Assembly (NCBI GenBank): GCA_013298505.1
Contig: JAAFHY010000001.1
Location: forward strand, 1-64,000
Reading direction: 5' to 3'
Length of the DNA stretch: 64,000 nucleotides
Source of the DNA: Cytophagales bacterium
Lineage (GTDB): Bacteria > Bacteroidota > Bacteroidia > Cytophagales > Cyclobacteriaceae
Shown: positions 1,466 to 21,970 of the stretch, in pieces
How positions within the stretch are numbered: position 1 is the first letter of the stretch
Layout of the letters: the number at the start of each line of letters is the position of its first letter
The notes under the pieces: model-generated
The model's input: the letters and a program-made list of their open reading frames with translations, nothing else
What the model was told of the DNA's origin: nothing
Databases searched by the model: none
Translations under genes and position numbers: made by a program

Positions 1466-1473
1466 TACTTTTG
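1466..1473 (+). promoter_or_regulatory. Bacteroidota-type -7 promoter box for clpS
   Basis: The sequence TACTTTTG matches the TAnnTTTG consensus used by the primary sigma factor of this phylum. It lies 19 bases before the GTG start of clpS, which gives a short leader. No clear -33 TTG was seen at ideal spacing. Confidence 0.5.
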
Positions 1474-1492
1474 CTTTACTATTTTCAATAAC

Positions 1493-1768: not shown

Positions 1769-1793
1769 CACATAGCTCGCTTAAAAAACACCT

Positions 1794-2402: not shown

Positions 2403-2448
2403 TCTGAATTGCAATGGTTTGGTTAGCCCTATTTATTCTCTTACTTTT

Positions 2449-2631: not shown

Positions 2632-2986
2632 CGTTGTTCTTGATACGAACATCGTTTTATATCTTTTAAATGGTGACAGAGTTTTGGCAGAGATGCTTTA
2701 CCAGAAGAAATTATACATTTCTTTTATTTCTCAATTGGAATTGTTTGGATTCAACGAAATCACCTCTCATCAGCAAGTAGAAATAAGTAAGTTCATTAAA
2801 GATTGCATTGTTATTGACATTAACGAAGAAATAAAAAATGAAGTAATTTCCATTCGTAAAACGACCAAACTAAAACTCCCCGACAGTATTGTGCTTGCAA
2901 CGGCTCGCTATTTAAGCCTACCACTCATCACAGCAGATGCAGATTTTAAAGCAACAAAATTTTCAGAAATAATTATTTACGAATAA
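2618..2986 (+). CDS. PIN-domain ribonuclease, VapC-like toxin
   Basis: The 122-residue protein has the four acidic positions of PIN nucleases: D9 in LDTN, E41 in SQLELFG, D89 in KLPDSIV and D107 in ITADADF. VapC-type toxins cleave RNA, usually tRNA or rRNA, with a bound Mg2+ ion and are held inactive by the partner encoded just upstream. All catalytic acids are present, so the enzyme is probably functional. The start overlaps the antitoxin frame by 14 bases, typical of translational coupling. The aminotransferase gene follows after two bases, so the pair sits inside a housekeeping transcript. Confidence 0.82.
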   Translation: MNGNSVVLDTNIVLYLLNGDRVLAEMLYQKKLYISFISQLELFGFNEITSHQQVEISKFIKDCIVIDINEEIKNEVISIRKTTKLKLPDSIVLATARYLSLPLITADADFKATKFSEIIIYE

Positions 2987-2988
2987 CT

Positions 2989-4185
2989 ATGAATCATCTC
3001 TCTAACCGCATTAACGCAATCGAAGAATCAGCCACGTTGGCCATGGCAGCCAAAGCCCGCGAGTATAAAAACAGAGGCATCGATGTAATCAACCTCAGCC
3101 TAGGTGAGCCCGATTTTAAAACGCCCAAACATATTTGCGAGGCAGCTAAAAGCGCGATTGATGACGGTAAGTATTTTTCGTACCCTCCAGTAGCGGGCTA
3201 TCAAGATTTGCGCGAGGCAATTGCAGCAAAATACCAAGCAGAAAATAAAGTTCCGTATAGGGCAGAGAACATTGTTGTTTCCAACGGGGCAAAACAATCT
3301 ATCGCCAATGTAATGTTGGCATTGCTCAACCCAGGCGATGAAGTAATTGTGTTTTCCCCTTTTTGGGTAAGCTACGATGCGCTTGTTCGCCTTTGCGAAG
3401 CAACACCTGTATTGGTGAAAGGAACAATAGAAAACGATTTTAAAGTAACCGCACAGCAAGTAGAAAAAGCAATCACTTCAAAAACTAAGGCGATTATTTT
3501 CTCTTCGCCTTGCAATCCTACGGGTTCTGTTTTTTCTAGAGCCGAGTTAGAATCAATTGCTGCGGTAGTTCTTAAGCACCAAAACTTGCTAATCATTGCC
3601 GATGAAATTTATGAGCACATTAATTTTACAGGAGATCGCGTAAGCATGGCTTCCCTTCCGGGGATGTTTGAGCGCACCATTACCGTAAATGGTTTTGCCA
3701 AAGGTTTTGCCATGACGGGCTGGCGTGTAGGATATATTGCCGCACCCAAATGGATAGCCGATGGAAGCAACAAAGTGCAAGGCCAAGTTACTTCTGCCAA
3801 TTGTTCTATTTCGCAGCGCGGTGCATTGGCTGCCATTACTGGCGATATTGAACCTACCAATAAGATGGTAGCAGAATATCACAAGCGAAGAGATATTGTT
3901 TTTAATCTTCTAAAAGAAATACCCGGTGTAAAAGCAAATTACCCACAAGGCGCATTTTATTTCTTTCCCGATGTTAGTTATTATTTCGGAAAGAAAGATG
4001 GCGGCACAATAATTAAGAATGGCGATGATTTTTGTTTCTTCATGTTAGATAAAGGTCACGTATCGTTAGTGCCGGGTAGTGCATTTGGCGATGATAATTG
4101 TGTGAGGCTTTCGTATGCTGCATCTGAAAAAGATTTAGTTGAAGCCATGCGCAGAATGAAAGAGGCCTTAGCTACATTAGTTTAA
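2989..4185 (+). CDS. Class I/II pyridoxal-phosphate aminotransferase, aspartate aminotransferase-like
   Basis: The 398-residue protein is a fold-type I aminotransferase. It shows the N-terminal INLSLGEPDF substrate-loop motif, the SNGAKQ phosphate-binding segment near residue 100, a CNPTG motif, the conserved ADEIYEHI strand and the cofactor lysine K238 in NGFAKGFAMTGWRVGY. A C-terminal arginine in the VRLSYA segment would bind the substrate carboxylate. The family transfers amino groups between aspartate and 2-oxoglutarate or related pairs. Aspartate is the likely substrate from overall resemblance, but other amino acids are not excluded. It starts two bases after the PIN gene. Confidence 0.9.
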   Translation: MNHLSNRINAIEESATLAMAAKAREYKNRGIDVINLSLGEPDFKTPKHICEAAKSAIDDGKYFSYPPVAGYQDLREAIAAKYQAENKVPYRAENIVVSNGAKQSIANVMLALLNPGDEVIVFSPFWVSYDALVRLCEATPVLVKGTIENDFKVTAQQVEKAITSKTKAIIFSSPCNPTGSVFSRAELESIAAVVLKHQNLLIIADEIYEHINFTGDRVSMASLPGMFERTITVNGFAKGFAMTGWRVGYIAAPKWIADGSNKVQGQVTSANCSISQRGALAAITGDIEPTNKMVAEYHKRRDIVFNLLKEIPGVKANYPQGAFYFFPDVSYYFGKKDGGTIIKNGDDFCFFMLDKGHVSLVPGSAFGDDNCVRLSYAASEKDLVEAMRRMKEALATLV

Positions 4186-4254
4186 AGGTTTAAAGATAGG
4201 TCATCTCCAACTTTAAAATTTCGGCTTTATACTTTAAGCTTCCACTTTAAAGAC

Positions 4255-5232
4255 ATGAATTCTACAGAAAAAATAATCCAATCGTTTTCAAACCTCAATG
4301 TGCTTATCGTTGGCGATGTGATGTTGGATAGTTATATCTGGGGTGTGGTGGAAAGAATTTCGCCCGAGGCACCAGTGCCAATTATTAATGTGCGCAAAAA
4401 AGATTTTAGGCTAGGTGGGGCTGCCAACGTTGCGTTAAACATTCGGGCTTTAGGAGCGAATCCAATTTTATGTTCGTTGATAGGAGAGGACGAGGACGGC
4501 AAGAAATTGATTCAGCAATTGGATGAAAAAAATATTTCTAAAGAAGGAATTGTAATCAGCAAGTTTAGACCGACAACAGTAAAAACGAGGATCATCGCAA
4601 GCCATCAGCACGTAGTTAGGGTAGATGAAGAATCTGATAAAGTTGCCAACAACGAAGAAGAAGAAAAGCTACTAACAAAAATTGAAAAACTGTTACCTCT
4701 TTGCCAAGTAGTTATTTTTGAAGACTACGATAAAGGAGTTCTTACCAGTTCCATTATTGAAAAGAGTATCGCTCTGGCAAAGAAAAAAAATATTCCAACG
4801 GTGGTCGATCCGAAAAAAAGAAATTTTTTATCGTACGTTGGCGCAACCCTGTTCAAACCAAATTTAAAAGAGTTACGCGAAGGACTGAAGATAGAAGTTG
4901 ACGCCTCAAATCAAAAACAAGTTGAAATTGCAGTTGATAAATTGAAACAGAAATTAAATGTAGCGGGTGTTATGCTCACGCTCTCCGAGCACGGTGTGTA
5001 CATCGACTACCAAAACGAAAAAGTAAAAATACCCGCGCACGCACGCGAGATAGCAGACGTTTCAGGTGCGGGCGATACCGTGGTGAGTATTGCTGCGTTG
5101 TGTATCGCATTAAGCCTTCCTCCGCATATCGTTGCTTCACTTTCTAATTTAGGTGGCGGGTTGGTATGCCAGCATGTGGGGGTAGTGCCGATTGATAGAG
5201 AGGAGTTACTAACTGAGGCACAAAGCCAATAG
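4255..5232 (+). CDS. rfaE1: PfkB-family kinase, D-glycero-beta-D-manno-heptose-7-phosphate kinase-like
   Basis: This 325-residue protein is a ribokinase/PfkB kinase. It begins with a VLIVGDVMLDSYIWG segment and an RISPEAPVPI substrate loop characteristic of the kinase half of HldE/RfaE, has a RLGGAANVALN glycine motif, and carries the catalytic base D274 in the GAGDT motif. The enzyme phosphorylates heptose-7-phosphate at C1 on the way to ADP-heptose for lipopolysaccharide core. The nucleotidyltransferase half of E. coli HldE is absent, as expected for a stand-alone kinase. Upstream, 4186-4254 holds three imperfect ACTTTAA repeats and no clear promoter. Confidence 0.82.
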   Translation: MNSTEKIIQSFSNLNVLIVGDVMLDSYIWGVVERISPEAPVPIINVRKKDFRLGGAANVALNIRALGANPILCSLIGEDEDGKKLIQQLDEKNISKEGIVISKFRPTTVKTRIIASHQHVVRVDEESDKVANNEEEEKLLTKIEKLLPLCQVVIFEDYDKGVLTSSIIEKSIALAKKKNIPTVVDPKKRNFLSYVGATLFKPNLKELREGLKIEVDASNQKQVEIAVDKLKQKLNVAGVMLTLSEHGVYIDYQNEKVKIPAHAREIADVSGAGDTVVSIAALCIALSLPPHIVASLSNLGGGLVCQHVGVVPIDREELLTEAQSQ

Positions 5233-5234
5233 TT

Positions 5235-5696
5235 ATGGGCAAGCCGCTGGACAGAGAACACCAAACATTTTTGCTATACTCTCAATTTCTCTTTATCGTT
5301 ATAGTTGTTTCTTGTAAACCAAATCCTGACGACTGGAGAGGTCAATGGACAAAGGACAATTTGAAATTAAAGGAAGTTGTTTCCTTATTAAAACACGACA
5401 GACTCAAACTCATAAATCCACGCGGGACTTACCAAATTCCAGACAGTTTTGATTTAAAGGAACCATACGGACAATTGGTGTATCGGCAGACTGACTTCAC
5501 ATACGACAGTACTTATTCAACTGTATTCTACCCTGACGACATCTACAAAGACAAATTTAAGTTCATGTTTGTATTTACGGACAACTCAAAAAGACTTAAT
5601 GAATATGACAACGAAAGAAAGTCAGTTGTTAAAATCGAGAACAATTGGTATTGCTTGGACGACTCATATTCAATTGAGAACATAATAAAGGACTGA
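5235..5696 (+). CDS. Hypothetical lipoprotein
   Basis: No family is recognised in this 153-residue protein. A hydrophobic stretch at about residues 12-26 ends in VVSC, which reads as a lipobox, so the mature protein is probably anchored from Cys27 and acts in the envelope. The rest is rich in Asp, Lys and Tyr and contains two motifs resembling beta-strand turns (FTYDSTYSTVFYPDD). The start follows the kinase stop after only two bases. Codon choice leans to GAC and differs from the flanking genes, which suggests recent acquisition together with the HNH gene. Confidence 0.55.
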   Translation: MGKPLDREHQTFLLYSQFLFIVIVVSCKPNPDDWRGQWTKDNLKLKEVVSLLKHDRLKLINPRGTYQIPDSFDLKEPYGQLVYRQTDFTYDSTYSTVFYPDDIYKDKFKFMFVFTDNSKRLNEYDNERKSVVKIENNWYCLDDSYSIENIIKD

Positions 5697-5735
5697 CCGA
5701 CTTGCGGCCAGCCAAGTAAGTTTATTGAATTGGTT

Positions 5736-6599
5736 ATGTTACCGTTGACAAATACGGATATTGATTTCTCTCAGGAGTTAGAGTGTACTTACAGTGGAGA
5801 GCTATACTCAGTACGCGACAATGGCGCAATTTTGAAACATCCTCAAGTTGGGAAGCGACCTCGGCCAACAGATAATCAATGGACTTTTGGAAAATTAAGT
5901 ATCACAACAGGGTACTTGGAAATTGCCTCTTTCCGTGTTCATAGAATAGTAGCAACTGCATTTCATGGGGAACCAACAACAAAAGAACACGTTGTTGATC
6001 ATATCGACACGAACAAACAAAATAACAGACCGGAAAACCTTAGGTGGCTTACAAGATTGGAAAACGTTTTAAACAATCCAATTACAGTAAAACGCATTGA
6101 ATTAGCTTGTGGCTGTAGTGTTGAAGAGTTTCTTTCAGACCCTTCAAAATTTCGTAATAAGTTTAAAAAAGACTCAAATTACGAATGGATGAGTACTGTA
6201 AGTAAAGAAGAAGCGAAACTAAGTTATGAACGGATGTTGACCTGGGCAAAAAGTGATAAAAAACCAACGGATAGAGGTTCTCTAGGAAAATGGATTTATA
6301 GTCCTAATCCTAAATCATTTTCAACGGTCAATAGAACGTTGATAGAACAAGTTTTTAAAAAGGTAATGGAGGTAACAGGAATAGGCCAAGAAGAAATATC
6401 TTCAAAAAGAAAAAAAAGAGAAATTTTAGCAGCTCGTGTTTATGCCGCGACACAACTTTATAAAGAAATAAGGCTATCAGAAGAGGAAATTGGTAAGTTG
6501 ATTGGAATCTCTAAAAGTATGGTTAATACATATTTGAATTACCCCGAAAACTATTTGCAAAAAGCTGATTACTTTCAGGCTTGGAAGAGTTCATGGTAG
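5736..6599 (+). CDS. HNH endonuclease with C-terminal helix-turn-helix
   Basis: The protein (about 287 residues) has an HNH nuclease domain with the pattern FRVHRIVATAFHG ... VVDHIDTNKQNNRPENLRW, in which the DH pair, the asparagines and the final NLRW strand are all present. This arrangement is shared by phage and homing-type HNH enzymes. The C-terminal 60 residues (AARVYAATQLYKEIRLSEEEIGKLIGISKSMVNTYL) form a plausible helix-turn-helix. The ATG at 5736 is preferred over a TTG six bases earlier. It is AT-rich relative to its neighbours and flanked by a tRNA. That fits a small mobile or selfish insertion, but no terminal repeats or methylase were found. Confidence 0.7.
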   Translation: MLPLTNTDIDFSQELECTYSGELYSVRDNGAILKHPQVGKRPRPTDNQWTFGKLSITTGYLEIASFRVHRIVATAFHGEPTTKEHVVDHIDTNKQNNRPENLRWLTRLENVLNNPITVKRIELACGCSVEEFLSDPSKFRNKFKKDSNYEWMSTVSKEEAKLSYERMLTWAKSDKKPTDRGSLGKWIYSPNPKSFSTVNRTLIEQVFKKVMEVTGIGQEEISSKRKKREILAARVYAATQLYKEIRLSEEEIGKLIGISKSMVNTYLNYPENYLQKADYFQAWKSSW

Positions 6600-9530: not shown

Positions 9531-12170
9531 TTATTCCGATCTCAAACTTTTCACAGGATTCATGTTCGCAGTATTGAAGCTATGGACAGCCACCGTCAAA
9601 AACGCTAAGACGATTGCCATCGCGGCAACCAATACAAACCATAAGTAGTTGATTTGTGTTTGATACGCAAAGTTGCTCATCCACTTCGTAACTATGTAGT
9701 AGGCAACAGGAATAATAGCGATCGCTGCAATCAGCACCAACAGCATTACCTCTTTAAACAGCAGGTAAATAATTTGCGGTACCGAAGCCCCGTGTACTTT
9801 CCGTATGCCTATTTCCTTGGTTCGCTGCACAGCGGCAAAAGCACTGAGTCCCAACAATCCGAGCAAAGAGATGAAAATACATACCCACGAAAGTGCCGCC
9901 AACAATTTTTGTTGCGTTTCATCAGAACGATATTGTTCATCAAATTTTTGGTCGAGAAAGAAATACTCAAAAGGGTGATTGGGGTCAATTGCTGCCCATC
10001 GCTTTTTTATTTCTTCCAGTGTTGTGGGTAAGTCTTCTCCTTTTACTTTCAAATGAAGAAAACCGCCTTCTTCACGAGGCTTTACAATCAGCAAAGGTTC
10101 TACGCGATTATGAAGCGAAGAGAAATTGAAATCTTTTACCATACCTATAACCTGCCCGTCCTTTTCGGCATGGAAGAACTTGACTTTCTTTCCCACCGGA
10201 TTATCGCCCCAGCCCATCAGTTTAGCAGCGGCCTCATTCACGATAAAGGCGTCTTCAACATCTGCTGTGGGCCCTGGCAAAAAATCTCGGCCTGCCAATA
10301 GTTTCAAGTCCAGCGTTTTTAAATAATCATCACCCACATTCATCATCGAGAAGGCTTGTTGCTTCATCCCGTCTTCGCCTTCGGCCCACATCACCGGCCC
10401 ACCGATGCCCATGCCCATCACATCGTAAGAAGTCGCAGCGGCCACTATTCGTGGATTTTGCAGAAACTCATTCTTGATTGCTCCGATCTGGTTTTGAACA
10501 AGTGTATCCTGTATGGGCAAGACCAATACATTATCTTTCGAAAAGCCCAGGTCTTTCAAACGCATGTAGGCAATCTGATCTTGCATGAGCCACGTGCAAA
10601 CCACCACAAACATAGAGATACCAAACTGCGTGGTAGTAAGAATCTTTCGCAAAACCAAGCTTGACTTTTGATTTTTAAATGCTCCTTTGAGTGCTTTTAA
10701 GGTAGGAATGCTCGGCAAATAAAGCGCTGGGTAAAGCCCGGAAATAATTCCAATGATAAACGTAATGGCAATAGAACCAATTAGTAAAGTGGGGTTGCCG
10801 AAGAAGTTCAGCGAAAGGTTTTTGCCAATCAGTTCATTAAATGGTGTCGCTATAAGAATGAAATAAACAAGACCGATTGCCAAACACAACGAGATGAATG
10901 ATAGAAATAGCGACTCACTCAAAAACGATATCAACAACGAACTACGGCTTGATCCCAATGTTTTCTTCATCGCAATCTCACTGGCCCGGTTGATGGCTTT
11001 TGCCGTAGATAAATTCATGTAGTTGATGCACGCCAGCAGGATGATAAAAAACCCAACTCCTGCAAAAGCATAGAGGTAGGCAATGTTTCCGCGAGCCTCA
11101 TCACTATCCAGCTTTGAATAAAAGTGGATGGATGTGAGCGGCTCAAGAATCGGGGCATACTTACCACCCACCTGATCGCCAAACGATTTAAAGTATTTGT
11201 CAAATATTGCCCCAAACTTTTCATAAAACTGTTGGGTATTATATCCTTCCGGAAACAGTAAATAGGTATAGACATCAGGATTCCAAAATGCTTCCGACTT
11301 TACCTTACCTTCTTCCATTACCCACCCGCGTTCTCTAAAATTGGAAATCAGGATATTGAATTTCAAGTGTGTATTCTCCGGAAGATCTTGAATTACAGCT
11401 GTTACTTTTCGCTGCTGGTTGTCTATGATCAACACCTGATCGAGCGGATCGGCACTGCCAAAATATTTGTCCGCAACTGACTTTGTAATCACCAGATTAT
11501 CCAATCCTTTAAAGCATGTTTGTGGATTGCCAGCGATAAACGTATGTGTGAATACAGAAAAGTAAGTAGAGTCTGCACGAACAATATTCTCTTCGTAAAA
11601 AGATTTTTCGTCTCCTTCTTTGGGTTGGTATTCGACTAGCGTTCGTCCCCAACTATTAGCCCGCACTGCTTGTTGCACTTCGGGAAATTCATCTTTCAAA
11701 ATTGGCGCCAATTCGCGCGCAGATCTTGCCGCTTGAAAGTCAACGCCCGTGGCTTGCAGGTGCCCGCCTAAACGATATATCCGAGTATGATTTGCATAGT
11801 GTTTATCATAATTCAAATCGTTTTGCAGAATAAGCAGAAGTAATATACTTACCGTTATCCCCAATGCCAGCCCAAGGATATTGAGTACCGAGAAAGATTT
11901 GTCTTTCAAAAATATCCGTATTGAAAACTTGAGGTTGTTAAAAAACATATCGAATTGGTTTACACGTTTAGTTCCCTTCACTGACTTGATGAACATTGGC
12001 CTAAAATATTTGATCACACTCCACGCAAATTTCCATTTTGCTTTGCGCGGATGGTTTCCTGCTTCTTTTATAAAAACCTCCGTCAAGTCGCCCTCAATCT
12101 CTTCGAGATAATCTTCGCGGCAAAACCAGCGGAGGAATTGGAGAGGGCGCTTTGGAGGTCTGTGATTCAT
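9531..12170 (-). CDS. FtsX-like ABC transporter permease with cytoplasmic prefix domain (copy 1)
   Basis: The protein has about 879 residues. An N-terminal cytoplasmic prefix contains the motif FLRWFCREDYLEEIEGDLTEVF. It is followed by a transmembrane helix (FSVLNILGLALGITVSILLL), a large periplasmic MacB-like domain, a three-helix FtsX block, then a second repeat of the same (TM, periplasmic domain, FtsX block) ending in NPVKSLRSE. Bacteroidota carry many such double-length permeases, often without an adjacent ATPase, as here. The role may be lipoprotein or small-molecule export or mechanotransmission. The start at 12170 is preferred because the upstream 14 codons fall in an interspersed repeat. 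A padR gene lies just upstream. Confidence 0.85.
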   Translation of the reverse strand: MNHRPPKRPLQFLRWFCREDYLEEIEGDLTEVFIKEAGNHPRKAKWKFAWSVIKYFRPMFIKSVKGTKRVNQFDMFFNNLKFSIRIFLKDKSFSVLNILGLALGITVSILLLLILQNDLNYDKHYANHTRIYRLGGHLQATGVDFQAARSARELAPILKDEFPEVQQAVRANSWGRTLVEYQPKEGDEKSFYEENIVRADSTYFSVFTHTFIAGNPQTCFKGLDNLVITKSVADKYFGSADPLDQVLIIDNQQRKVTAVIQDLPENTHLKFNILISNFRERGWVMEEGKVKSEAFWNPDVYTYLLFPEGYNTQQFYEKFGAIFDKYFKSFGDQVGGKYAPILEPLTSIHFYSKLDSDEARGNIAYLYAFAGVGFFIILLACINYMNLSTAKAINRASEIAMKKTLGSSRSSLLISFLSESLFLSFISLCLAIGLVYFILIATPFNELIGKNLSLNFFGNPTLLIGSIAITFIIGIISGLYPALYLPSIPTLKALKGAFKNQKSSLVLRKILTTTQFGISMFVVVCTWLMQDQIAYMRLKDLGFSKDNVLVLPIQDTLVQNQIGAIKNEFLQNPRIVAAATSYDVMGMGIGGPVMWAEGEDGMKQQAFSMMNVGDDYLKTLDLKLLAGRDFLPGPTADVEDAFIVNEAAAKLMGWGDNPVGKKVKFFHAEKDGQVIGMVKDFNFSSLHNRVEPLLIVKPREEGGFLHLKVKGEDLPTTLEEIKKRWAAIDPNHPFEYFFLDQKFDEQYRSDETQQKLLAALSWVCIFISLLGLLGLSAFAAVQRTKEIGIRKVHGASVPQIIYLLFKEVMLLVLIAAIAIIPVAYYIVTKWMSNFAYQTQINYLWFVLVAAMAIVLAFLTVAVHSFNTANMNPVKSLRSE

Positions 12171-12180
12171 TTTAGTTATA

Positions 12181-12256
12181 GTTGGTGGTTGTTCGTTATT
12201 GGTTGTTCGCAACGCTCTTTACGAGCAACAATCAACCAAGAACGAACAACGACTAT
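12181..12256. repeat. Interspersed inverted repeat built from GTTGTTCGTT units
   Basis: Left arm GGTTGTTCGTTATTGGTTG and right arm containing CAACCAAGAACGAACAAC are approximately inverted and separated by about 20 bases. The same unit, again inverted, recurs at 26601-26710. It lies between padR copy 1 and permease copy 1. Confidence 0.55.
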
Positions 12257-12259
12257 TCT

Positions 12260-12586
12260 TCATCCAAAAGAAATTTTAGGAATCTGTTGATAGATGCTCG
12301 TGCGCAACGCATACTGATTGTCAAGCATTTTTTTGCCCAACGCGGTAATCACATAATACTTCTTTCGCCTGCCTCCGCGGTCTTCGGTAATGCCACCAAA
12401 GCGCGACTTGACGAAGCCTTTGTCTTCAATGCGCTTGAGTGCCACGTGCACCGCACTGATGTTCACTTTCTTTTTGAGCTTTTCTTCCAAGCCTTCCAAT
12501 ATGGCTACACCATACGCCTCATCGTGCAGGGCGGCTACCATCAGCAATACGAGCTCTTCAAATTCACCAAGAGATTGTTGGGTCAT
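12260..12586 (-). CDS. PadR-family transcriptional regulator (copy 1)
   Basis: This 108-residue protein is a compact PadR winged helix. LGEFEELVLLMVAALHDEAYGVAI is the first helix pair, VNISAVHVALKRIEDKGFV the recognition region, and RGGRRKKYYVITALGKKML the wing, followed by a short dimerisation helix. PadR proteins usually repress a neighbouring transporter gene and themselves in response to a toxic ligand. It lies just upstream of, and on the same strand as, an FtsX permease, a pairing that repeats at 23170 in this window. A strong palindrome 27 bases upstream could be its operator. Confidence 0.85.
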   Translation of the reverse strand: MTQQSLGEFEELVLLMVAALHDEAYGVAILEGLEEKLKKKVNISAVHVALKRIEDKGFVKSRFGGITEDRGGRRKKYYVITALGKKMLDNQYALRTSIYQQIPKISFG

Positions 12587-12864: not shown

Positions 12865-13776
12865 ATGAATTTTAACGAAATAATTGAAGGCGTGTACCGC
12901 GAGGTAAAAGATATTGACGACCGCGGTAAGCTGGCCTCCTACATTCCTGAACTTGCGCAGGTGAATCCTAAACGATTTGGTATTCACCTCTCCACCGTTG
13001 ATAAACACCAATTTGGAATAGGCCACTACACCGAGAGATTTTCTATTCAAAGTATTTCGAAAGTGCTGGCCCTTACGCTGGCGTATAAAATAAAAAATCA
13101 AAGTATCTGGAAGCGCGTAGGCATCGAGCCTTCCGGAACGGCATTTAATTCCCTGGTGCAATTAGAGGCCGACAAAGGCATCCCCAGAAATCCATTTATT
13201 AATGCGGGCGCCATGGTGATTGCCGATATCCTGATCACACATTTAAAGAATCCGAAGAAAGATTTTATTGCTTTTGTGCGAAGCCTTTCGAACAACCCCG
13301 GCATCGACTATTCCGAAACGGTGGCGGCCTCTGAAAAGTCGGTGGGGTATCGCAATGTGGCGCTCTGTAATTTCATTAAATCATTTGGCAACATCGAAAA
13401 CCATCCGCAGGTGGTGCTCGATTTTTATTTTGACCTGTGCTCTATTGAGATGAATTGCCGCGAGCTTTCCGAAACATTTTTGTTTTTAGCGAACGATGGC
13501 AAAACCCTGAGCGGCATGCCCGTTTTAACAAACCATCAAACCAAAAGAATAAATGCGCTCATGCAGACGTGTGGATTTTATGATGAGTCGGGAGAGTTTG
13601 CATTTAAAGTAGGGCTGCCCGGCAAGAGTGGCGTGGGCGGAGGCATCATCGCTGTCAATCCCGATCGATATACCATTGCCGTTTGGAGCCCCCGGCTGAA
13701 CGCGAAAGGAAATTCATATAAAGGTGTGCGCGTGCTCGAAAAGTTTACAAAAAAAACAGAGTCTTCTATTTTTTAG
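12865..13776 (+). CDS. glsA: Glutaminase A
   Basis: This 303-residue protein matches bacterial glutaminase along its length. It has the serine-lysine catalytic pair S63 and K66 in RFSIQSISKVLAL, the NPFINAGAM motif near 110, the ENHPQVVLDFYF stretch and the glycine-rich C-terminal GLPGKSGVGGGI containing the oxyanion region. It hydrolyses glutamine to glutamate and ammonia in the cytoplasm. The ATG at 12865 is the first in frame with the family start. The 280 bases upstream hold palindromes related to padR, and the gene sits alone between a regulator and an island. Confidence 0.92.
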   Translation: MNFNEIIEGVYREVKDIDDRGKLASYIPELAQVNPKRFGIHLSTVDKHQFGIGHYTERFSIQSISKVLALTLAYKIKNQSIWKRVGIEPSGTAFNSLVQLEADKGIPRNPFINAGAMVIADILITHLKNPKKDFIAFVRSLSNNPGIDYSETVAASEKSVGYRNVALCNFIKSFGNIENHPQVVLDFYFDLCSIEMNCRELSETFLFLANDGKTLSGMPVLTNHQTKRINALMQTCGFYDESGEFAFKVGLPGKSGVGGGIIAVNPDRYTIAVWSPRLNAKGNSYKGVRVLEKFTKKTESSIF

Positions 13777-13786
13777 TGAACCTGGT

Positions 13787-13807
13787 AGCCTGAGCTTGTC
13801 GAAGGCT
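13787..13807. repeat. Short palindromic repeat (AGCCT ... AGGCT)
   Basis: The 21-base element has arms AGCCT and AGGCT around GAGCTTGTCGA. This REP-like word is found dispersed in many bacterial genomes. It starts a GC-richer non-coding stretch (13777-13960) in which no gene was recognised. The forward open frame there has the biased composition of a repeat, not of a protein. The remaining bases to 14069 hold nothing recognised. Confidence 0.5.
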
Positions 13808-14069
13808 TGGGCGGCTTATCGGGCTGTCGCTACTCGCCACCTCACGGACATGCCACTTCGGGCTCAAAGAGATCGCTCCATCCCGGCCGCAAGGGCAAGT
13901 GTCCAATCATCTCGTAATTTTCTTATTCGTATCCGGGGCGGGAGTACTTTGCTATAGGATTAATTTATTGATTTACAGTCGCAAAAATAATGGAAAATAT
14001 ACTTGATGTTGACTTTGTAAATAAGCCGTTGTTCGCGGACAAAGATCAAGAAACTTGATTTTTTGAATC

Positions 14070-14879
14070 TTACTTTCTCACTTTGCTGGAGTAATATTTT
14101 TTAAACCATTCTGCTACTTCTGTTTGTTTAAGTTTATCCCATTTCTTCTTCTCTCCAACAATCTTAAAATGTGCAAACCAGTTTGCTTCTTCTCCATCTT
14201 TTAACTCTTTTGAATTATCAATAAAGAAAACCTGATAACACAATTGCGCAGCCTCAAAAAGTAAATCAAGTGAACGGTAGTAACGTTGCTCTATTTTTAT
14301 CGGATCAACATCATGGCCTCCCTTATTTTTTCTTGCTTCAACTCGAAACTTATTGATTTCGGGAGATTCAGTTGAAACAAAATATAAATACACTTTATAC
14401 CCTGATTCTTTGGCTTCACGCATAATGTCAAGCTTACTAGTGTGTGAGAAAACCGTTTCAAAGGATAATTTCTTTTTTTCTTGAAGTAATTTTTTTCGAA
14501 GAAAATGCGCTAGAATCTGAGCCATCCGCTCATCAGCTTTGGCTACTGAATGTCCAGACGTTAGGGAGACTTTATTATTTGAGAAAAAGTAACAAGACAG
14601 AAACTGAGCTTCTGTAAAATCATTGTTAATTAGTCCAGATTGAATAGCCTCTTTTTTGAACTCCTCTTCACTAACAGAAGTAGTGTAGGTTTTAAAATTA
14701 AAAGCGTCATTACGAAGGTCTTTAGCAATATCATCAGCATTGATGTAGATACCGAAGTCAACAAGTTGGTTATTTACCTTGGTCTTCCTAACTGCATTTA
14801 TTATTGTGCTTTTACCTGAACCATTTGGCCCAGCAAAAACACGCATTCGTAAATAAGGATTAGAATTAGTCGAGGGCAA
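14070..14879 (-). CDS. Zeta-toxin-like P-loop kinase
   Basis: The 269-residue protein begins with a Walker A motif GPNGSGKST at residues 17-25. It continues with INADDIAKDL (47-56), a central SFETVFSH motif (139-146) and a basic EARKNKGGHDV..KIEQRYYRSLDLL segment around 171-197, which are the hallmarks of zeta-type toxin kinases and related AAA proteins. Classical zeta toxins phosphorylate UDP-N-acetylglucosamine and block wall synthesis. This longer relative may have another substrate. The start overlaps the upstream small gene by 14 bases, so the two are co-translated. Both are AT-rich and lie in an island. Confidence 0.75.
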   Translation of the reverse strand: MPSTNSNPYLRMRVFAGPNGSGKSTIINAVRKTKVNNQLVDFGIYINADDIAKDLRNDAFNFKTYTTSVSEEEFKKEAIQSGLINNDFTEAQFLSCYFFSNNKVSLTSGHSVAKADERMAQILAHFLRKKLLQEKKKLSFETVFSHTSKLDIMREAKESGYKVYLYFVSTESPEINKFRVEARKNKGGHDVDPIKIEQRYYRSLDLLFEAAQLCYQVFFIDNSKELKDGEEANWFAHFKIVGEKKKWDKLKQTEVAEWFKKYYSSKVRK

Positions 14880-15114
14880 TGGCAGACTTGTGGGCTTTTT
14901 CTATTTTAGTAATTCGTGTTTGTGACCCATTGAGCTCTTCACGAATCACCCAACCATTTTCAGCCTTAATGGTATAGCCCATAGATTGTTTAGTCTCAGC
15001 AGAAGCTTTTTTGATAGCGGACCCCATAGCAGATTTCATAATACGTTTCGTAACGTAGTTGCTTTTCTTTTTTCTGCCACTTTTAATAACACTTGATTTT
15101 GAGGTTTGAGCCAT
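14866..15114 (-). CDS. Probable antitoxin partner of the zeta-like kinase
   Basis: This 82-residue basic protein opens with a Lys/Ser-rich tail (KSGRKKKSN) and ends in a compact section (ENGWVIREELNGSQTRITKIEK). That C-terminal pattern resembles small proteins encoded just before zeta-like kinases. It overlaps the kinase start by 14 bases and has its own promoter four bases upstream. It is not similar in sequence to the classical epsilon antitoxin, so neutralising activity is an inference from position, size and overlap. Confidence 0.6.
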   Translation of the reverse strand: MAQTSKSSVIKSGRKKKSNYVTKRIMKSAMGSAIKKASAETKQSMGYTIKAENGWVIREELNGSQTRITKIEKAHKSAIALD

Positions 15115-15118
15115 GTTC

Positions 15119-15126
15119 CAAATATA
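15119..15126 (-). promoter_or_regulatory. -7 promoter box for the zeta-like toxin pair
   Basis: Reverse-strand TATATTTG is an exact TAnnTTTG match and ends only four bases before the ATG at 15114, so the transcript should be leaderless or nearly so. Confidence 0.6.
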
Positions 15127-15245
15127 CTTCTTTCACTTACATTTTTAAAACGGATAAATAAGGACATTGGTTCCCAACAGTAGGCGTTAATCGGCTAAAA
15201 CGAGCTCTTTCGAAGGAATTTGTGAAGAGCAAAAACCTAAACTAA

Positions 15246-15974
15246 AGGCTCCATTTTTGGTTTGTAATAAAGATAAAGAATCTCAATAGGATACTGAACA
15301 CAACAAGGTCAGATGCCGAGAACTCAAGAAACAAAGTTGAAGTGCTGAAGAAAGCAGTCCTTGCCATGGCCTTGGGAACAGAAGTGGAAGCTATTCCCGC
15401 GAACTTATATCAGGATAAGGACTGTATCAGGAAGATTTCAGAATGTGATGTTCTGTTTGGATGTATGGATAGTGTGGATGGTCGTCACTTACTTAACCAA
15501 ATTGCTACATTTTATCTGATACCCTATTTCGATTTGGGTGTAAAATTAATAGCCGATGGCAATGGAGGAATAGATCAGATTTGGGCTACTGTACACTACC
15601 TGCAACCTGGAAAATCTTCACTTCTTACAAGAGGAGTTTATACCTTAGATGATCTCACTGCCGCATCAATGTACCGAAAGGATCCGGTAAATTATGAGGC
15701 CTTAAAAAAAGAGGGTTACATCAAAAACGTTAACGTAGAGAGTCCTGCAGTTATTAGTATTAACATGCAGATATCGAGTCTTGCCGTTATTGAATTTTTA
15801 GCCCGAATACATAAGTTTCGGTATGATAACAATGCTGATTCCGCTATTACTAGAGTAAGTTTAACAGATAGCTACATTCAAAAGGAATCAGAAGGTGAAA
15901 CAGATATTTACTTGGAGAAATTTGTGGGTCGCGGTGATCTGATGCCATTATTAAACATGCCAGAATTCAGCTAA
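15246..15974 (+). pseudogene. E1/ThiF-like adenylyltransferase, N-terminally truncated
   Basis: Family similarity begins abruptly in the open frame near 15264 with IKNLNRILNTTRSDAENSRNKVEVLKKA. This is the segment that normally follows the nucleotide-binding GxGGxG loop and first acidic residues of E1/ThiF/MoeB enzymes. The rest is well kept: CDVLFGCMDSVDGRHLLNQIA matches the adenylation-domain (D-N/V-D...R) segment, and the protein ends with a GRGDLMPLLNMPEF tail. An in-frame TAA at 15243 and the lack of an ATG show that the 5' third is gone. A GTG at 15342 could start a 210-residue fragment. It abuts an intact DUF6527 gene, as in ubiquitin-like conjugation clusters. Confidence 0.75.
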
Positions 15975-16295
15975 ATGTTCTTTTTTGGGAAAAATAGAAA
16001 CCAACCTGATTACAAAGGGATAAGTGTCGGGGATATACCCGAGCGCTTCGAGGCTAAAACGATTTATGTTGTTGGCGACAAAGGCCATAAGTGGGTTGCT
16101 GCATTTCTATGTCCTTGTGGATGTGGTCAATTGATCCAATTGAATTTACTCAAGGATGGAGATGTTTCTTGGAGAGCATCTATTCACAAAGATTCATCAA
16201 TAACTATTCGGCCATCTATCTGGAGAATAACTGGGTGCAGAAGCCATTTTACAATTACGAGGGGGGATTTACGTTGGGTAAATGATTGGGATTAA
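15975..16295 (+). CDS. DUF6527-family zinc-binding protein
   Basis: This 106-residue protein starts at the base after the E1-like stop. It has a cysteine cluster CPCGCG (about residues 45-50), then LIQLNLL, a central W and a terminal SIWRITGCRSHFTITRGDLRW block. That pattern matches DUF6527, a small family that recurs next to ThiF/E1, E2-like and multi-ubiquitin genes in bacteria. A role as an accessory or deubiquitinase-like factor has been proposed for relatives. Here the upstream partner is truncated, so it is probably no longer functional as a system. The reading frame itself looks complete. Confidence 0.7.
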   Translation: MFFFGKNRNQPDYKGISVGDIPERFEAKTIYVVGDKGHKWVAAFLCPCGCGQLIQLNLLKDGDVSWRASIHKDSSITIRPSIWRITGCRSHFTITRGDLRWVNDWD

Positions 16296-16475
16296 TTTTG
16301 ATGTATACGCTTATAGTTTTCCAGCTTCCGCTGGAGTGACAACGCTAGCATTTTTAATCTACGGGAGAGCGGGTTAAGCGCACAAGGGTGACGTTTGCGC
16401 GAGCTGTTGCAGACACTCGTCCTACACAAGCTTCGGTCGGACTAGTCAGAGGGCCTGGCCCCTTCAATCTTCCAA

Positions 16476-16538
16476 TTATTCTTTCCTCAGCGAGTCTATT
16501 GGATTGAACATGGCCGCCTTCGCAGATTGATAAGATAC
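16476..16538 (-). pseudogene. Remnant of the 3' end of a fourth FtsX permease
   Basis: Read on the reverse strand, this piece encodes VSYQSAKAAMFNPIDSLRKE followed by TAA. The last codons of the intact permease that starts its own 3' end 40 bases further on (16576) encode nearly the same peptide, ending NPIDSLRKE, with roughly one base in eight changed. Nothing upstream of these 20 codons remains. It therefore marks a deletion or recombination junction where an island now joins the permease array. Confidence 0.8.
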
Positions 16539-16563
16539 CCTCCTACGCCAAGGCTTCGGAGGG
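16538..16563. repeat. Palindromic repeat CCCTCC ... GGAGGG
   Basis: Outer arms CCCTCC and GGAGGG enclose a second pair GCC/GGC. This dispersed hairpin word lies exactly between the permease remnant and the intact permease. A second small hairpin (CCAGC-TTCC-GCTGG) lies near 16322 in the same non-coding stretch (16296-16475), where nothing else was recognised. Confidence 0.5.
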
Positions 16564-16575
16564 CAGGCCCATAGT

Positions 16576-19218
16576 CTATTCTTTCCTCAGTGAGTCTATC
16601 GGATTGAACAGGGCTGCCTTTACAGATTGATAACTAACTGTAAGTAGAGCCAGCAGCAACACCATCGCTCCGGCCAATACAAACACACTTGCACCCAGCG
16701 GAATACGATACTCAAATGCACTCAGCCACTCGCGCATGACATACCACGCCAATGGACAGGCCAACACAAAGGCAAGCGCCACCTGCCGCGTAAACGAAAG
16801 TGACACCATCAAAAATAAATTGAGCGAACCCGCGCCTAATATTTTTCGAATGCCAAGTTCCTTGCTTTTGCGCTCTACGTGATAGTTGGCCAAGCCCAAC
16901 AGCCCAAGGCAGGCGACCAATATGCTCAGCGCTCCGGCCATTTGAAAAATCATGCCTGCCTTTTTCTCGGATACATAAAAGGTGTTTAACTGCTCAGTAA
17001 GAAAATGATATTCAACAGGCGTTTCGGGGTCAAACTTTTCACAGACTTTGGCCGCGCCCTCAATCAGCGGTTGTGTATCGCCCGATACTTTGAGTGTAAA
17101 ATAATCAATGGCTTGAACGGGATTGTTGCGATAGCCAATAATGATGGGCGCAATTTTTTGATGCAACGATTGAAAGTTAAAATCCTGCAGCACACCAATC
17201 ACGTGTGCATTCCACTTGCCATTGCGTGTGGTAATCTGAAGCACGGTGCCAATCGGATTATTCAAGTTCATGGCCTTTACGGCTGACGCATTCATCACCA
17301 CGTTCATGGAGTCGGCTGCGGTGCCTCTAAAGAAATTGCCTGCCGCCAGTTGAAGTTGATAGGTGTTGAGCATGTCTTCGTCAAACCCCATGAAGTACGT
17401 TTGCAGCGAGTCTGCGTTTGCACTTGCTTCGTTGGTGGTACGCGCATACACCTGACGAATGTTTTTCCACTCGCCCGGCACGCGCGAGGAAACGGCCACC
17501 TGCTGCACACCTGCGATTTTAGAAAACTCATTCTTCATCGCCTGAAACTGGTTGCGCACCGCACCACTGTTAATATCAATGATCATCAGTTGCTCTTTGT
17601 TGAAGCCCATGTCTTTCGTTTGAATGAAGTTGATCTGGTTGCTGATCACCAGCGTAGCCACAATCAATACAATGGTGATGGTAAATTGAAAAACCACCAG
17701 TGAGGTGCGGAGATTAAATCTGCTTTTTGTAAACACCGTCTGGCTTTTGAGCGTGGCGACTGGCTTTAGTTTTGATAAGTAGAAGGCCGGGTAGCTTCCC
17801 GCGATGAGGCCAATGATCAGGGCGATTGCCAGAAGAGCTGGCATGAACTCGCCCATGTTTGAAAAGGTAAGATCAAAGTCCTTTCCGGTGATCGAATTAA
17901 ACAACGGGAAACACAGATTCATCATGATCAGCGACAGCAGCATGGAAAGGAAGGTGATGACAAAAGCCTCTGTTAAAAACTGAAAGATGAGTTGCGTTTT
18001 AACGGCTCCGGCTACTTTGCGAATACCGATTTCTTTGGCGCGCGAAGAAACCTTGGAAGTGGTGAGGTTGATGTAATTGATGGCCGCGATTATCAACAAG
18101 AATATCGCCATGCTGGAAAAGATGTATACATACGAAAGCTGGCCTTGCTCACTTTCTGAGCCATTTTGAATATCAGCAGAGTGCAGATAAATATCCTGAA
18201 TAGGCTGAAAAGCAATTTCCCGAGATTCCAGATCAGGTCCCCAATGTTTTTTCCTAAACGCGGGCATCTTCGCTTCTACGTCTTGGATCGATTTTCCTTC
18301 TTTCAATACTACATAGGTGAAAGCTCCTACATCTTGCCAGCTATTCAGATAGTCGGTCCAATCCTGAGTGACAAGAATTTTAGAAAACAATAAGTCAAAT
18401 TGAAGGTGCGAATTCTTAGGAAGATCTTTGAGAATGCCTGTTACTTTAACTACTCCTAAGTTTTGCAGGTTCATGGTCTTACCAAGGGCGTTTTCGTCAC
18501 CGAAGTATTTTTTTGCGGTAGACTCGGTGAGTACCACTGAAAAAGATTGAGACAGTGCGGTTGCTTTATCGCCTGCGATGAACTCAAAATCGAAAATATT
18601 AAAAAAGTTGGCGTCTTCTGTCGTGAACCAACTTCGCTCACTATACTTAGCGTCCCCAATTTCCACCACCACTTGACCGGAAAATTGAAAGAGACGTGTC
18701 ATCTCTTCTACTTCGGGAAACGAGTTCACTAATTCAGGACCAATCAGCGGCACGATACTGCCGAACGTGCGGACGTTATCGGGGATGGATTTATTCACCC
18801 AGAGCGCTCTGTATGTACGGTCTGATTTCTGATGAAAGGAATCGTATGAAAGTTCGTTGCTTACATACGTGTATAACATCGTGCTAAATGAAATGCCCAA
18901 CACTAAACCGAACACATTAATAAAAGTGAATGTCTTGTTTTTGATTAATTGTCGGAGACTAATTTTAAAATAATTTTTGATCATGCCGTAGTTGTTTAAA
19001 TTCTGATATCCTTCCAATGGTTTGATAATGCTGGGGCGGAATAGCAACAGCACATCTCTTACAAACTTCAAATCCGCTTTTCTCTTCCCTGCTTCTCTTA
19101 CTCTCTCCTCATACAACTCCATCAAATCCCCTTCAATAGAATCCCTCAACTTCGGGTGGCAGAACCAGCGGAAGAGTTTCAAAAAGATTTTAGGTGGATG
19201 AGTACTATTGTTTTTCAA
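16576..19218 (-). CDS. FtsX-like ABC transporter permease with cytoplasmic prefix domain (copy 2)
   Basis: The 880-residue protein has the same architecture as copy 1. The prefix FLKLFRWFCHPKLRDSIEGDLMELYEERV is followed by NNYGMIKNYFKISLRQLIKNK, a first transmembrane helix, a periplasmic domain, the first FtsX block with AINYINLTTSKVSSRAKEIGIRKVAGA, and a second half with SKELGIRKILGAG. It ends NPIDSLRKE. The first 80 residues are almost identical to copy 3, evidence of recent tandem duplication. No ATPase is encoded nearby, so any energising subunit must come from elsewhere. Confidence 0.88.
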   Translation of the reverse strand: MKNNSTHPPKIFLKLFRWFCHPKLRDSIEGDLMELYEERVREAGKRKADLKFVRDVLLLFRPSIIKPLEGYQNLNNYGMIKNYFKISLRQLIKNKTFTFINVFGLVLGISFSTMLYTYVSNELSYDSFHQKSDRTYRALWVNKSIPDNVRTFGSIVPLIGPELVNSFPEVEEMTRLFQFSGQVVVEIGDAKYSERSWFTTEDANFFNIFDFEFIAGDKATALSQSFSVVLTESTAKKYFGDENALGKTMNLQNLGVVKVTGILKDLPKNSHLQFDLLFSKILVTQDWTDYLNSWQDVGAFTYVVLKEGKSIQDVEAKMPAFRKKHWGPDLESREIAFQPIQDIYLHSADIQNGSESEQGQLSYVYIFSSMAIFLLIIAAINYINLTTSKVSSRAKEIGIRKVAGAVKTQLIFQFLTEAFVITFLSMLLSLIMMNLCFPLFNSITGKDFDLTFSNMGEFMPALLAIALIIGLIAGSYPAFYLSKLKPVATLKSQTVFTKSRFNLRTSLVVFQFTITIVLIVATLVISNQINFIQTKDMGFNKEQLMIIDINSGAVRNQFQAMKNEFSKIAGVQQVAVSSRVPGEWKNIRQVYARTTNEASANADSLQTYFMGFDEDMLNTYQLQLAAGNFFRGTAADSMNVVMNASAVKAMNLNNPIGTVLQITTRNGKWNAHVIGVLQDFNFQSLHQKIAPIIIGYRNNPVQAIDYFTLKVSGDTQPLIEGAAKVCEKFDPETPVEYHFLTEQLNTFYVSEKKAGMIFQMAGALSILVACLGLLGLANYHVERKSKELGIRKILGAGSLNLFLMVSLSFTRQVALAFVLACPLAWYVMREWLSAFEYRIPLGASVFVLAGAMVLLLALLTVSYQSVKAALFNPIDSLRKE

Positions 19219-19233
19219 AGGTCATTTGTTTTT

Positions 19234-19288
19234 AGTAGGCAGGCGGCAGTACGCAGTGGGCAGTCCTGCCTAGTGGTGACTGCCTACT
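19234..19288. repeat. Short interspersed inverted repeat (AGTAGGCAG / CTGCCTACT)
   Basis: Perfect nine-base arms at 19234-19242 and 19280-19288 enclose a GC-rich loop with internal GCAG/CTGC words. It lies between permease copies 2 and 3 and resembles the unit at 9495-9529. Confidence 0.5.
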
Positions 19289-19297
19289 ACCAACTTT

Positions 19298-21970
19298 TTA
19301 CTCCGATCTCAAACTCTTTACCGGATTAACCAACCCCGCCCGCACCGATTGATAGCTAATGGTAAACAATGCGATGAGTACTGCGACCAATCCTGCCACA
19401 GCGAAAACTTGCCAGGTGATATCAATGCGATAAGCAAAATCTTGAAGCCATTGTTGCATAGCATACCAAGCCAGCGGAACAGCAATGACAATGGAAGCAA
19501 CAACTAGTTTTATAAAATCTAATGTCAGTAAGTTGAAAATATTTTTCAACGAAGCACCCATCACTAACCGTATGCCAATTTCTTTGGCGCGCTGCTCAAT
19601 CATAAAGGCCGACAAGGCAAACAGTCCGAGGCAGGCTACGACAATTGCGAACACTGCAAAGCAGGTAAAGATTCGTCCCATGCGTTGCACATCGGCATAT
19701 ATGGCCGCGTAGCTGTCATCCAAAAATGCAAAACGAATAGGTTGATGGGGCGCAAACTTCTTCCATACCGCGGTGGTTGATTCAATTACCTCGCTCATAT
19801 TTTGTGAATTTACTTTCAATGAAATGATAGACGGGCTGTTGCCCAACGTGAAGCAAAGTGGTTGAATATTTTCTTTCATGGATTCATAATGAAAATCTTC
19901 CACGATACCGATAATCGTGTATTTATCCTGATAGCCTTCTATGCGTTTTCCGATTACCTCTCCTCCTATTTCTTTCGCCATCGATTGATTAACAATAATG
20001 GCACTCGAATCGGTAGCCAGATCCCTTTGAAAATTTCTTCCATCCACCACTTTCATTTCCAAGGTAGGGATGTAGTCATGGTCTACTTTCCATATCTGTG
20101 CCGCTATGGCATTGTCTTGCGACTTCTTTCCATCATTCCAAAATTCATTTTGATTTCGTTTCGTTCCTCTGATAGGAAGATAATCGCTGATTGTGACACT
20201 TTTTATTTGTGAGGTTTTCAATAATTCATTTTTAAAAGAAGTTGCCTGGTCACCTAACGTGCCCGCCCCTTGTATCATTAGCACCTGGTCTTTCTCAAAA
20301 CCAATTTTTTTATTTAAAATAAACTCCATCTGCTGATAGATGATAATAGTGCCCACTATCAATACTACTGAGGTAGTGAATTGAAACACTACAAGTGCAC
20401 TTCGTAAAGGCGAACCCTTACTTCCCTTGCTAATCGCTCCTTTTAATACTTGAATGGGTTGAAAAGATGACAGGTAGAAAGATGGATAAACACCAGCCAG
20501 TAGGCCAATCATTAGCGAAGCCCCGAAGATAATGGGTAACAACAACCATTCGCTCCACGGAAACACGAGCGACTTAGCTGAAAGAATATTGAAGTAAGGC
20601 AACAGAAAAAATGCTAGCACAATTCCCACCACAAACGATAGCACGCTAAATAGTACCGACTCCGTTAAGAATTGTTGAACAATACTGCTCCGCATCGAGC
20701 CCACTACTTTGCGCAGGCCTACTTCTTTGGCGCGGTTGGCCGACTTAGCTGTGGATAGGTTGATGAAATTAATAATGGCAATTACCAAAATCAATCCCGC
20801 TATAGCGGCAAACAGCCAAACAAAACGAATGTCGCCATGTGTTAGTCCGTCATGCACACCGGCTGAGTACAAATGAATTCTGTCGATGGGTTGCAGTTCA
20901 AGTCGGGCGCCACGCTCATCAATGAATTTATGCGCATCAGCCACCGACATACCACCTTCTATCATCATGGGTATAAAGTATTTTTCCAAAATGCCTTTCG
21001 ACATTTTCTTCTCCAGTTCTGTAACATTCGCTCCTTCGTTCAGCTGAACATACACAGCATAGTTGCTGGCTCCCCAGTCACTTTGCTCATCTTTCCAAAA
21101 CGCCAGGCCCTTCGTGCCAATCAAAAAATCAAATTGAATGTGTGAGGTGGTTTTGAAATCTGCAATGACGCCACCTATCGTGTAGGGTTTATCCGTTTTG
21201 TTGTCGACAATAATTGTTTTGCCTACAGGATTTTGATTGGGAAAATACTTATCTGCTTTGCGCTTGGTCAGCACGACAAAGTTGGGTTCTTCTAGCGCCC
21301 GTTTCGCGCTGCCATGAATAAAGGGAAGCTCCAACATATCGGCCAACTCTTGGTCGAAGTACACAAACCCCTGGTCGTACGCATTTTCTAATTGGTCACC
21401 CGAGCGCACTTCATTGTTGCCAGCCCCAAACAATTCGCTTGCATTGTACCGGCCCGCTTTGAGCACTTCCGGGTAATCCTCCTTCAGTGCATTGCTCATC
21501 GGTGCCGGAAAGAAGATATTCTTATCCAGTCCATTGCCTTCTTTAATCACACCCAATACGCGATAGAGATTTTTGCCCTTTGTATAATGCTTATCATAGA
21601 TTAACTCATCTTTGATATAAAGTGTAATCAGCAAACAAGCAGCAATTCCCAAGGCAAAGCCACCAATCTTAATGGCTGAATACATTTTCTGTTTTACTAA
21701 ACTCCTCCATCCTATTTTGAAATAACTTTTTAGCATACCGTAATTGTTTAAATTTTTATAACCTTCTGCTGGCCTGATAATACTTGGTCTAAAAAGCAAT
21801 AGCACATCCCTTACAAATTTCAAATCCGCTTTCAACTTTCCACTTACAACTTTGCGCTCTTGATACAACTCCATCAAATCCCCTTCAATAGAATCTTTCA
21901 ACTTCGGGTGGCAGAACCAGCGGAAGAAGCGGAGAATAAATTGAGGTGGTATGGTTTTGTGTTTTTTCAA
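19298..21970 (-). CDS. FtsX-like ABC transporter permease with cytoplasmic prefix domain (copy 3)
   Basis: The 890-residue protein begins PPQFILRFFRWFCHPKLKDSIEGDLMELYQER and continues with the VRDVLLLFRPSIIRPAEGYKNLNNYGML block shared with copy 2. It then has the first transmembrane helix (IGGFALGIAACLLITLYI), a periplasmic domain, the FINLSTAKSANRAKEVGLRKVVGS block and a second FtsX half ending NPVKSLRSE. It closes eight bases before the serine hydrolase gene, so the hydrolase, copy 3 and perhaps copy 2 form one transcript headed by padR copy 2. Confidence 0.88.
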   Translation of the reverse strand: MKKHKTIPPQFILRFFRWFCHPKLKDSIEGDLMELYQERKVVSGKLKADLKFVRDVLLLFRPSIIRPAEGYKNLNNYGMLKSYFKIGWRSLVKQKMYSAIKIGGFALGIAACLLITLYIKDELIYDKHYTKGKNLYRVLGVIKEGNGLDKNIFFPAPMSNALKEDYPEVLKAGRYNASELFGAGNNEVRSGDQLENAYDQGFVYFDQELADMLELPFIHGSAKRALEEPNFVVLTKRKADKYFPNQNPVGKTIIVDNKTDKPYTIGGVIADFKTTSHIQFDFLIGTKGLAFWKDEQSDWGASNYAVYVQLNEGANVTELEKKMSKGILEKYFIPMMIEGGMSVADAHKFIDERGARLELQPIDRIHLYSAGVHDGLTHGDIRFVWLFAAIAGLILVIAIINFINLSTAKSANRAKEVGLRKVVGSMRSSIVQQFLTESVLFSVLSFVVGIVLAFFLLPYFNILSAKSLVFPWSEWLLLPIIFGASLMIGLLAGVYPSFYLSSFQPIQVLKGAISKGSKGSPLRSALVVFQFTTSVVLIVGTIIIYQQMEFILNKKIGFEKDQVLMIQGAGTLGDQATSFKNELLKTSQIKSVTISDYLPIRGTKRNQNEFWNDGKKSQDNAIAAQIWKVDHDYIPTLEMKVVDGRNFQRDLATDSSAIIVNQSMAKEIGGEVIGKRIEGYQDKYTIIGIVEDFHYESMKENIQPLCFTLGNSPSIISLKVNSQNMSEVIESTTAVWKKFAPHQPIRFAFLDDSYAAIYADVQRMGRIFTCFAVFAIVVACLGLFALSAFMIEQRAKEIGIRLVMGASLKNIFNLLTLDFIKLVVASIVIAVPLAWYAMQQWLQDFAYRIDITWQVFAVAGLVAVLIALFTISYQSVRAGLVNPVKSLRSE

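Follow-up and report, generated by a model that had tools for sequence, protein, structure and literature searches.

Positions 15,246 to 16,295 of the window, by which we mean the whole stretch of 64,000 nucleotides analysed here from a Cytophagales bacterium, very probably hold the 3' remnant of a Bub-type ubiquitin-like (Ubl) operon, the arrangement of row 6e of Iyer et al., which was broken by a rearrangement and is most likely dead. Two reading frames remain, both on the plus strand: the C-terminal half of a JAB-E1 (BubCD-type) gene (15267..15974) and an intact DUF6527 gene (15975..16295). The stop of the former and the ATG of the latter are adjacent (15974/15975), and neither frame is interrupted by a stop.

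The E1 frame is open from 15246 to its stop codon at 15972-15974. When it is aligned with six full-length relatives (L050-L053, L020, and L021), E1 homology begins at 15267, and 15246-15266 is therefore only an open lead-in; the break point, where E1 homology runs out going upstream, is placed at 15246..15276 (no strand). The relatives' own residues at the start of the alignment are 225-229 of about 460, with identities of 56-64%, and the four nearest full-length E1s (62-64% identical to the remnant) come from other Bacteroidota MAGs. The Pfam match to ThiF (PF00899) is also partial, covering profile positions 55-143 of 238 (E 2.8e-13). In a 463-position model of the family, the remnant occupies positions 227-463; in other words, it is not a complete JAB-E1 fusion. 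A preliminary description of this DNA had stated that the frame starts in the middle of the adenylation domain and lacks the nucleotide-binding loop. Both statements hold, and the alignment with complete clusters that it proposed puts the end of the loss at 15267. An alignment with eight relatives opens just before the motif NLNR, and the JAB domain, the VGCSGTGSP-type nucleotide-binding loop, and the end of the VDPD strand (acidic, before NLNR) are all absent. The missing part is larger than had been described, because the JAB domain is lost too. In the E1/MoeB/ThiF fold, such elements bind nucleotide and metal.

The family of the remnant is well defined. Residues 5-458 of the full-length protein at locus L050 match Citrobacter BubCD in a PDB search (E 1.4e-83), and the remnant itself aligns to BubCD residues 223-455 (E 4.5e-27), which makes it a member of the BubCD family. 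For the Ubl-E2 protein of L020, the chains matched are BubB (1e-23), a multi-ubiquitin protein (2.9e-05), and BubA (1.5e-04); its Ubl part also matches BilA (E 2.7e-05). The profile searches that had been recommended thus place both frames in named families, since the second one matches DUF6527 (PF20137) completely, at 1-63 of 63 (E 4.1e-20).

The front part of the operon was sought in the window and in the rest of the genome. The N-terminal halves of the six full-length E1s gave only chance-level matches in the window (best E 0.10), the best additional window match of a full-length E1 query lies away from the remnant (E 0.09), and three Ubl and three E2 proteins gave nothing better than E 0.15, in agreement with the earlier statement that neither a Ubl nor an E2 gene is visible upstream. 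The window yielded neither an E2-like gene or domain (PF14462) nor a multi-ubiquitin gene (PF14452); the latter was also missing from the genome searches, which were run without a positive control. The stretch between the neighbouring zeta-type gene pair and the remnant (15115..15266, no strand), of which the 120 bases before the break had been called unrelated, is indeed free of E1, Ubl, and E2 matches. A full-length E1 restored by correcting an upstream frameshift or sequencing error, which had been named as an outcome that would speak against a truncation, is ruled out, because in no frame of the window do the N-terminal halves match better than chance would.

The source genome is a draft of 3.96 Mb in 206 contigs, with a completeness of 98.9%. 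Queried with the front half of the L021 E1, it gave two matches: on contig C53, a JAB-E1 gene of a different kind (26% identity), and on contig C64, weakly and over 45 residues, a ThiF gene (E 0.001). A Ubl-E2 query and the Multi_ubiq family, searched without a positive control, gave no match in this draft. Contig C53 was considered as the missing half and ruled out as another E1 subtype; contig C168 was also rejected, its ThiF-like match covering positions 21-51 and its frame resembling a FAD oxidoreductase by eye. Contig C53 of G000 (5.8 kb, 1-5758, locus L018) carries near its start this second, complete JAB-E1-like gene of another subtype, with CxxC; the gene after it encodes an ImmA/IrrE-type domain (PF06114). 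A Ubl for it was not found in its own genome by a search without a positive control.

Intact relatives show how unusual the cut is. A genus-level search of 58 genomes (the source genome and its relatives) gave matches in 10. Besides the window, there are eight close loci in seven genomes, with identities of 47-58% and open frames of 460-485 codons; the four remaining places are weaker matches to another E1 subtype, one of them being contig C53 of the source genome. The eight close loci have the gene order ubiquitin-like and E2-like (fused or separate), JAB-E1, and DUF6527, and Pfam assigns the members scanned to Multi_ubiq, Prok-E2_E, Prok-JAB with ThiF, and DUF6527, with PF14462 present in four of the four E2-like proteins scanned. 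A single-protein search of the GTDB genome contigs gave no match; an alignment search of the same contigs found 445 stretches encoding relatives, and the best 80 of these were kept, among them five contigs (L054, L089, L099, L103, and L115) that, judged by their length, also occur in the 58-genome search. These 80 loci were chosen by how closely they resemble the remnant, so the design left room for broken copies. Among the best 80 of 445, the E1 starts at model position 1-4 in all 80, versus 227 in the window, on a model built from ten family members of which several are among the 80. A Ubl and an E2, the latter recognized by a purpose-built profile, are present in 79 of these best 80, the exception (L075) beginning at a contig start, and DUF6527 follows the E1 in 79 of them, the exception (L117) being a stretch that ends inside the E1. 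A conserved split E1 had been suspected when three of the four best matches began at residue 4, and it was discarded on finding that the L050-L053 genes are full-length.

In some of the genus relatives (L022 and L024-L026), a divergent set of accessory genes adjoins the module on the upstream side of the Ubl gene. Two of its genes are conserved and belong to no Pfam family (scanned for the L025 copies), and L022, L024, and L026 add a caspase-like gene (PF00656, E 3.8e-18 for the L024 copy; recognized by tblastn in the other two). Near L050, the place of the accessory set is taken by a gene with sigma-70 region 2.

DUF6527 had been said to occur mainly in clusters with Ubl and E1 proteins, and the genus supports this view. 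The family is carried by 10 of 62 genus genomes at 11 loci, and an E1-type gene lies directly upstream in all 11. Seven of these are of the BubCD type; two combine a Ubl gene with a DUF6791-ThiF gene (L145, scanned by Pfam, and L146, classed by eye); one (L147) has a ThiF gene running to the end of the fetched stretch; and the last is the window, where DUF6527 stands directly downstream of the E1 as in Bub or Iyer 6e operons. Counting the window, there are eight BubCD-type loci in the genus, and the window is the sole cut one. Its DUF6527 keeps C-x3-C-x37-C-x2-H, a putative metal site in which C46, C50, C88, and H91 would be the ligands. Of 79 relatives, 78 show the pattern C-x3-C-x36-38-C-x2-H, and the one that does not, L109, is a fragment.

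From an alignment of 61 sequences, the window's own and 60 taken from the 79 relatives, AlphaFold2 predicts for DUF6527, with high confidence, an all-beta fold of eight strands and no helix (pLDDT 88.8, pTM 0.80). A treble clef requires a helix. The predicted fold thus disfavours the treble-clef idea of 2006. A fold search of the prediction against the PDB returned no solved structure at E <= 0.001, and a sequence search of the PDB gave no match (best E 1.6). The predicted viral protein A0A8E7FZU2 (BFVD) matches the fold (E 9e-6, TM 0.71/0.83), and the phage genome of Dulem virus 40 (L156) has a weak DUF6527-like frame at 3001-3273 (E 9e-3); a phage search with a second DUF6527 (from L050) found nothing. 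Such viral pieces might be decoys or counter-defence pieces. The literature searched yielded no mention of DUF6527 by name. A useful by-product of this analysis is DUF6527 itself, the usual last gene of these operons, with a predicted all-beta structure and no solved relative found.

Upstream of the remnant lie two genes on the minus strand: a divergent zeta-toxin-like P-loop gene (14070..14879), matching PF06414 at profile positions 80-159 of 199 (E 3.8e-07), and a conserved 82-aa gene without a family (14866..15114), a possible antitoxin; of 14 zeta loci that were fetched, 12 also have this partner. Of the 390 genomes of the order, 36 have a zeta homologue (E <= 1e-20), the source genome among them, and the 35 others are all outside the genus, whose members within the 390 are not fully listed.

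The left side of the spot consists of a permease and a PadR gene (9531-12586). The PadR regulator (12260..12586, minus strand, 108 aa) is 100% identical in amino acids to a copy that lies beside a module in the related genome G034. On the right side, an FtsX/MacB-type permease (16576..19218, minus strand) has 92-95% amino acid identity to its copies in G034, G072, G078, and G010. Other genes lie downstream of the right permease in these four genomes. Their dihydroorotase is 71-84% identical, versus 92-95% for the permease, and one permease copy shares 95% identity with its counterparts in G072 and G078, against only 82-83% for the dihydroorotase. This difference suggests gene exchange. FtsX/MacB-type permeases and PadR regulators form multi-copy arrays (9531-12586 and 16576-21970), which flank the changing cargo.

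Does any relative carry the full set at this site, as had been proposed as a check? The nearest answer is G034, and it is a partial one. It has the same flanking families, with PadR DNA 87% identical over 767 bp, and its PadR gene adjoins Ubl-E2, E1, and DUF6527; module-type accessory genes lie on the far side of its right permease copy, where a different contig ends. As these ends share no overlapping sequence, we can only infer that they join. The G034 E1 is only 50% identical to the remnant, and with respect to PadR the module points the other way; it is therefore not an intact form of the window insertion. The search for a close strain with the operon intact at this position found none.

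Other features of the spot deserve mention. A rare repeat of about 100 bp at 13805-13901, present once in the window, has three matches in the source genome (G000), three in G034, two in G072, one in G008, and none in G010; it occurs near both G034 module pieces and at the same spot in G072, and was considered as a possible mobile-element end. Just downstream of DUF6527, at 16464-16538, the 3' end of the permease next to it recurs as a short and broken copy. A glutaminase gene (12865-13776) beside the spot is shared by 4 of 58 genus genomes, including the source genome.

What is left of the operon is well preserved, as had been noted. Among the E1 columns conserved in at least 95% of the 80 relatives, 34 of 35 are kept, and the miss is the first residue, at the unaligned edge; among the DUF6527 columns conserved at 95% or more, 12 of 13 are kept, with one proline changed. 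In a tree rooted on pSYSX, with L117 left out and L020 added, the root-to-tip distance of the remnant ranks 34 of 81, an ordinary branch length. Under neutrality, the lack of stops in either frame limits the change since the break to at most about 0.06 substitutions per site (95%, indels ignored). With no stop, the conserved residues kept, and an ordinary branch, the data fit a recent break and ongoing selection on the frames alike. On the scale of sequence decay the break looks recent, which is a bound and not a date; if one or both frames had stayed in use, little decay would be expected as well. The preliminary description had the rest of the module removed, apparently recently; the second half of this statement agrees with the data, whereas the removal need not have taken place at this site, because the piece could have arrived broken.

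The most probable course of events may be sketched as follows. Judging from the literature and the domains, in the intact operon the JAB domain would process the Ubl tail, the E1 would adenylate it, and the E2-like protein would pass it to targets, with DUF6527 as a putative accessory metal-site protein. A rearrangement with its junction near 15267 would have left the second half of the E1 and DUF6527, and the zeta-type toxin-antitoxin-like pair may have arrived with it. Because the nucleotide-binding loop, the JAB domain, the Ubl, and the E2 are all missing, the window copy should be unable to adenylate or conjugate and is most likely dead. We infer this loss of function, as well as the order of the events and the part of the zeta pair in them, whereas the family, how much is lost, and the integrity of the two remaining frames are observed. 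So read, the locus would be a clear example of a bacterial ubiquitin-like operon shortly after breakage, in a gene-exchange spot and beside a toxin-antitoxin-like pair, and this fits the mobile spread of the family described in Iyer 2006 (PMC1779556) and PMC4963859.

A dead relic could also have arisen elsewhere: an already broken piece, perhaps together with the zeta-type pair, may have been imported in one exchange at the variable spot. The cargo beside the right permease differs among the relatives compared, the nearest E1s (62-64%) belong to other Bacteroidota MAGs, whereas the module of G034 at the same flanking families reaches only 50%, and no other genus genome is among the 36 with a close zeta homologue, in a genus sampling that is not fully listed. 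No donor with the same junction was found, however, and the data fit a deletion in place equally well; we regard import as a possible but rather unlikely origin. It is less likely still that the junction is an assembly chimera, in which the zeta-type pair was wrongly joined to the rear half of an E1 that is in fact intact, its front having fallen into an assembly gap. The assembly is a draft of many contigs, its second E1 gene stands at the start of the short contig C53, and each of the four nearest homologues sits no more than about 4.1 kb from where its contig ends, so that such modules may assemble poorly. Against this, no N-terminal half of the BubCD type, no Ubl, and no E2 was found on other contigs, in searches that for the Ubl had no positive control, and the completeness of the genome is high.

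The little decay in both frames could instead mean that a shortened E1, possibly starting at GTG 15342, has been retained with DUF6527 to serve a separate purpose, for example as a binding decoy. One sigma-70-like match lies upstream on the plus strand (15099-15128), but promoter-like matches in 13700-16700 do not exceed chance, at 6 versus 6.7 expected, with a consensus that does not cover Bacteroidota promoters. Moreover, the fragment begins in mid-fold without the nucleotide-binding loop, and none of the best 80 of 445 relatives is built as half an E1 with DUF6527; we consider this reading very improbable. About as improbable is a working mini-module, in which the E1 tail would dock and DUF6527 would act as a metal-site adaptor, affecting other Ubl systems by interfering with them or by being borrowed by them, the C53 JAB-E1 being one such system.

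The preferred reading, a broken and dead Bub-type operon, can be set against the systems already described. In the text around row 6e of Iyer et al. 2006 (PMC1779556), the operon consists of a polyUbl, an E2/RWD-like protein, a JAB domain fused to an E1, and a metal-binding protein, of which the window holds only the last one and a half genes. The E2/RWD-like domain is described there as lacking a catalytic cysteine, and the last protein as perhaps a treble-clef zinc finger with the signature C-x(3)-C-x(35-38)-H-x(2)-C, whereas the motif seen here is C-x3-C-x36-38-C-x2-H. The annotation of the Synechocystis plasmid pSYSX, an example of row 6e, lists in order multiubiquitin, E2/UBC, ThiF, and DUF6527, and a plasmid-borne copy of the operon also exists in Pontibacter. 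On a plasmid of Citrobacter koseri, multiubiquitin, ThiF, and DUF6527 follow one another in that order, behind ATP-binding and DNA-binding genes. The relevant section of PMC4963859 presents the multiubiquitin cassette as Iyer's arrangement and places 70% of multiubiquitin genes beside possible toxin-antitoxin loci; these are of the COG2856/DUF955 kind, whereas the neighbour of the window remnant is of the zeta kind.

The Bub operon of Citrobacter (BubA, BubB, and BubCD; PDB 9ea4, 9ea5, 9ea8, 9eae, and 9eav) has the same E1 family as the window, which lacks BubA, BubB, and the front half of BubCD. A paper in EMBO J 2026 (PMC13373217) speaks of 544 Bub operons and says that phage protection by them has yet to be demonstrated. 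An E1-type adenylation domain is also common to the window system and the Bil and CBASS E1-E2 defence systems, and the PADLOC E1-E2 model matches weakly (E 3e-4); the full-length E1, however, matches BubCD far better, the next solved E1-type chain being at E 1.1e-08. The intact module is thus not a new system: it is the known one of Iyer row 6e, or Bub.
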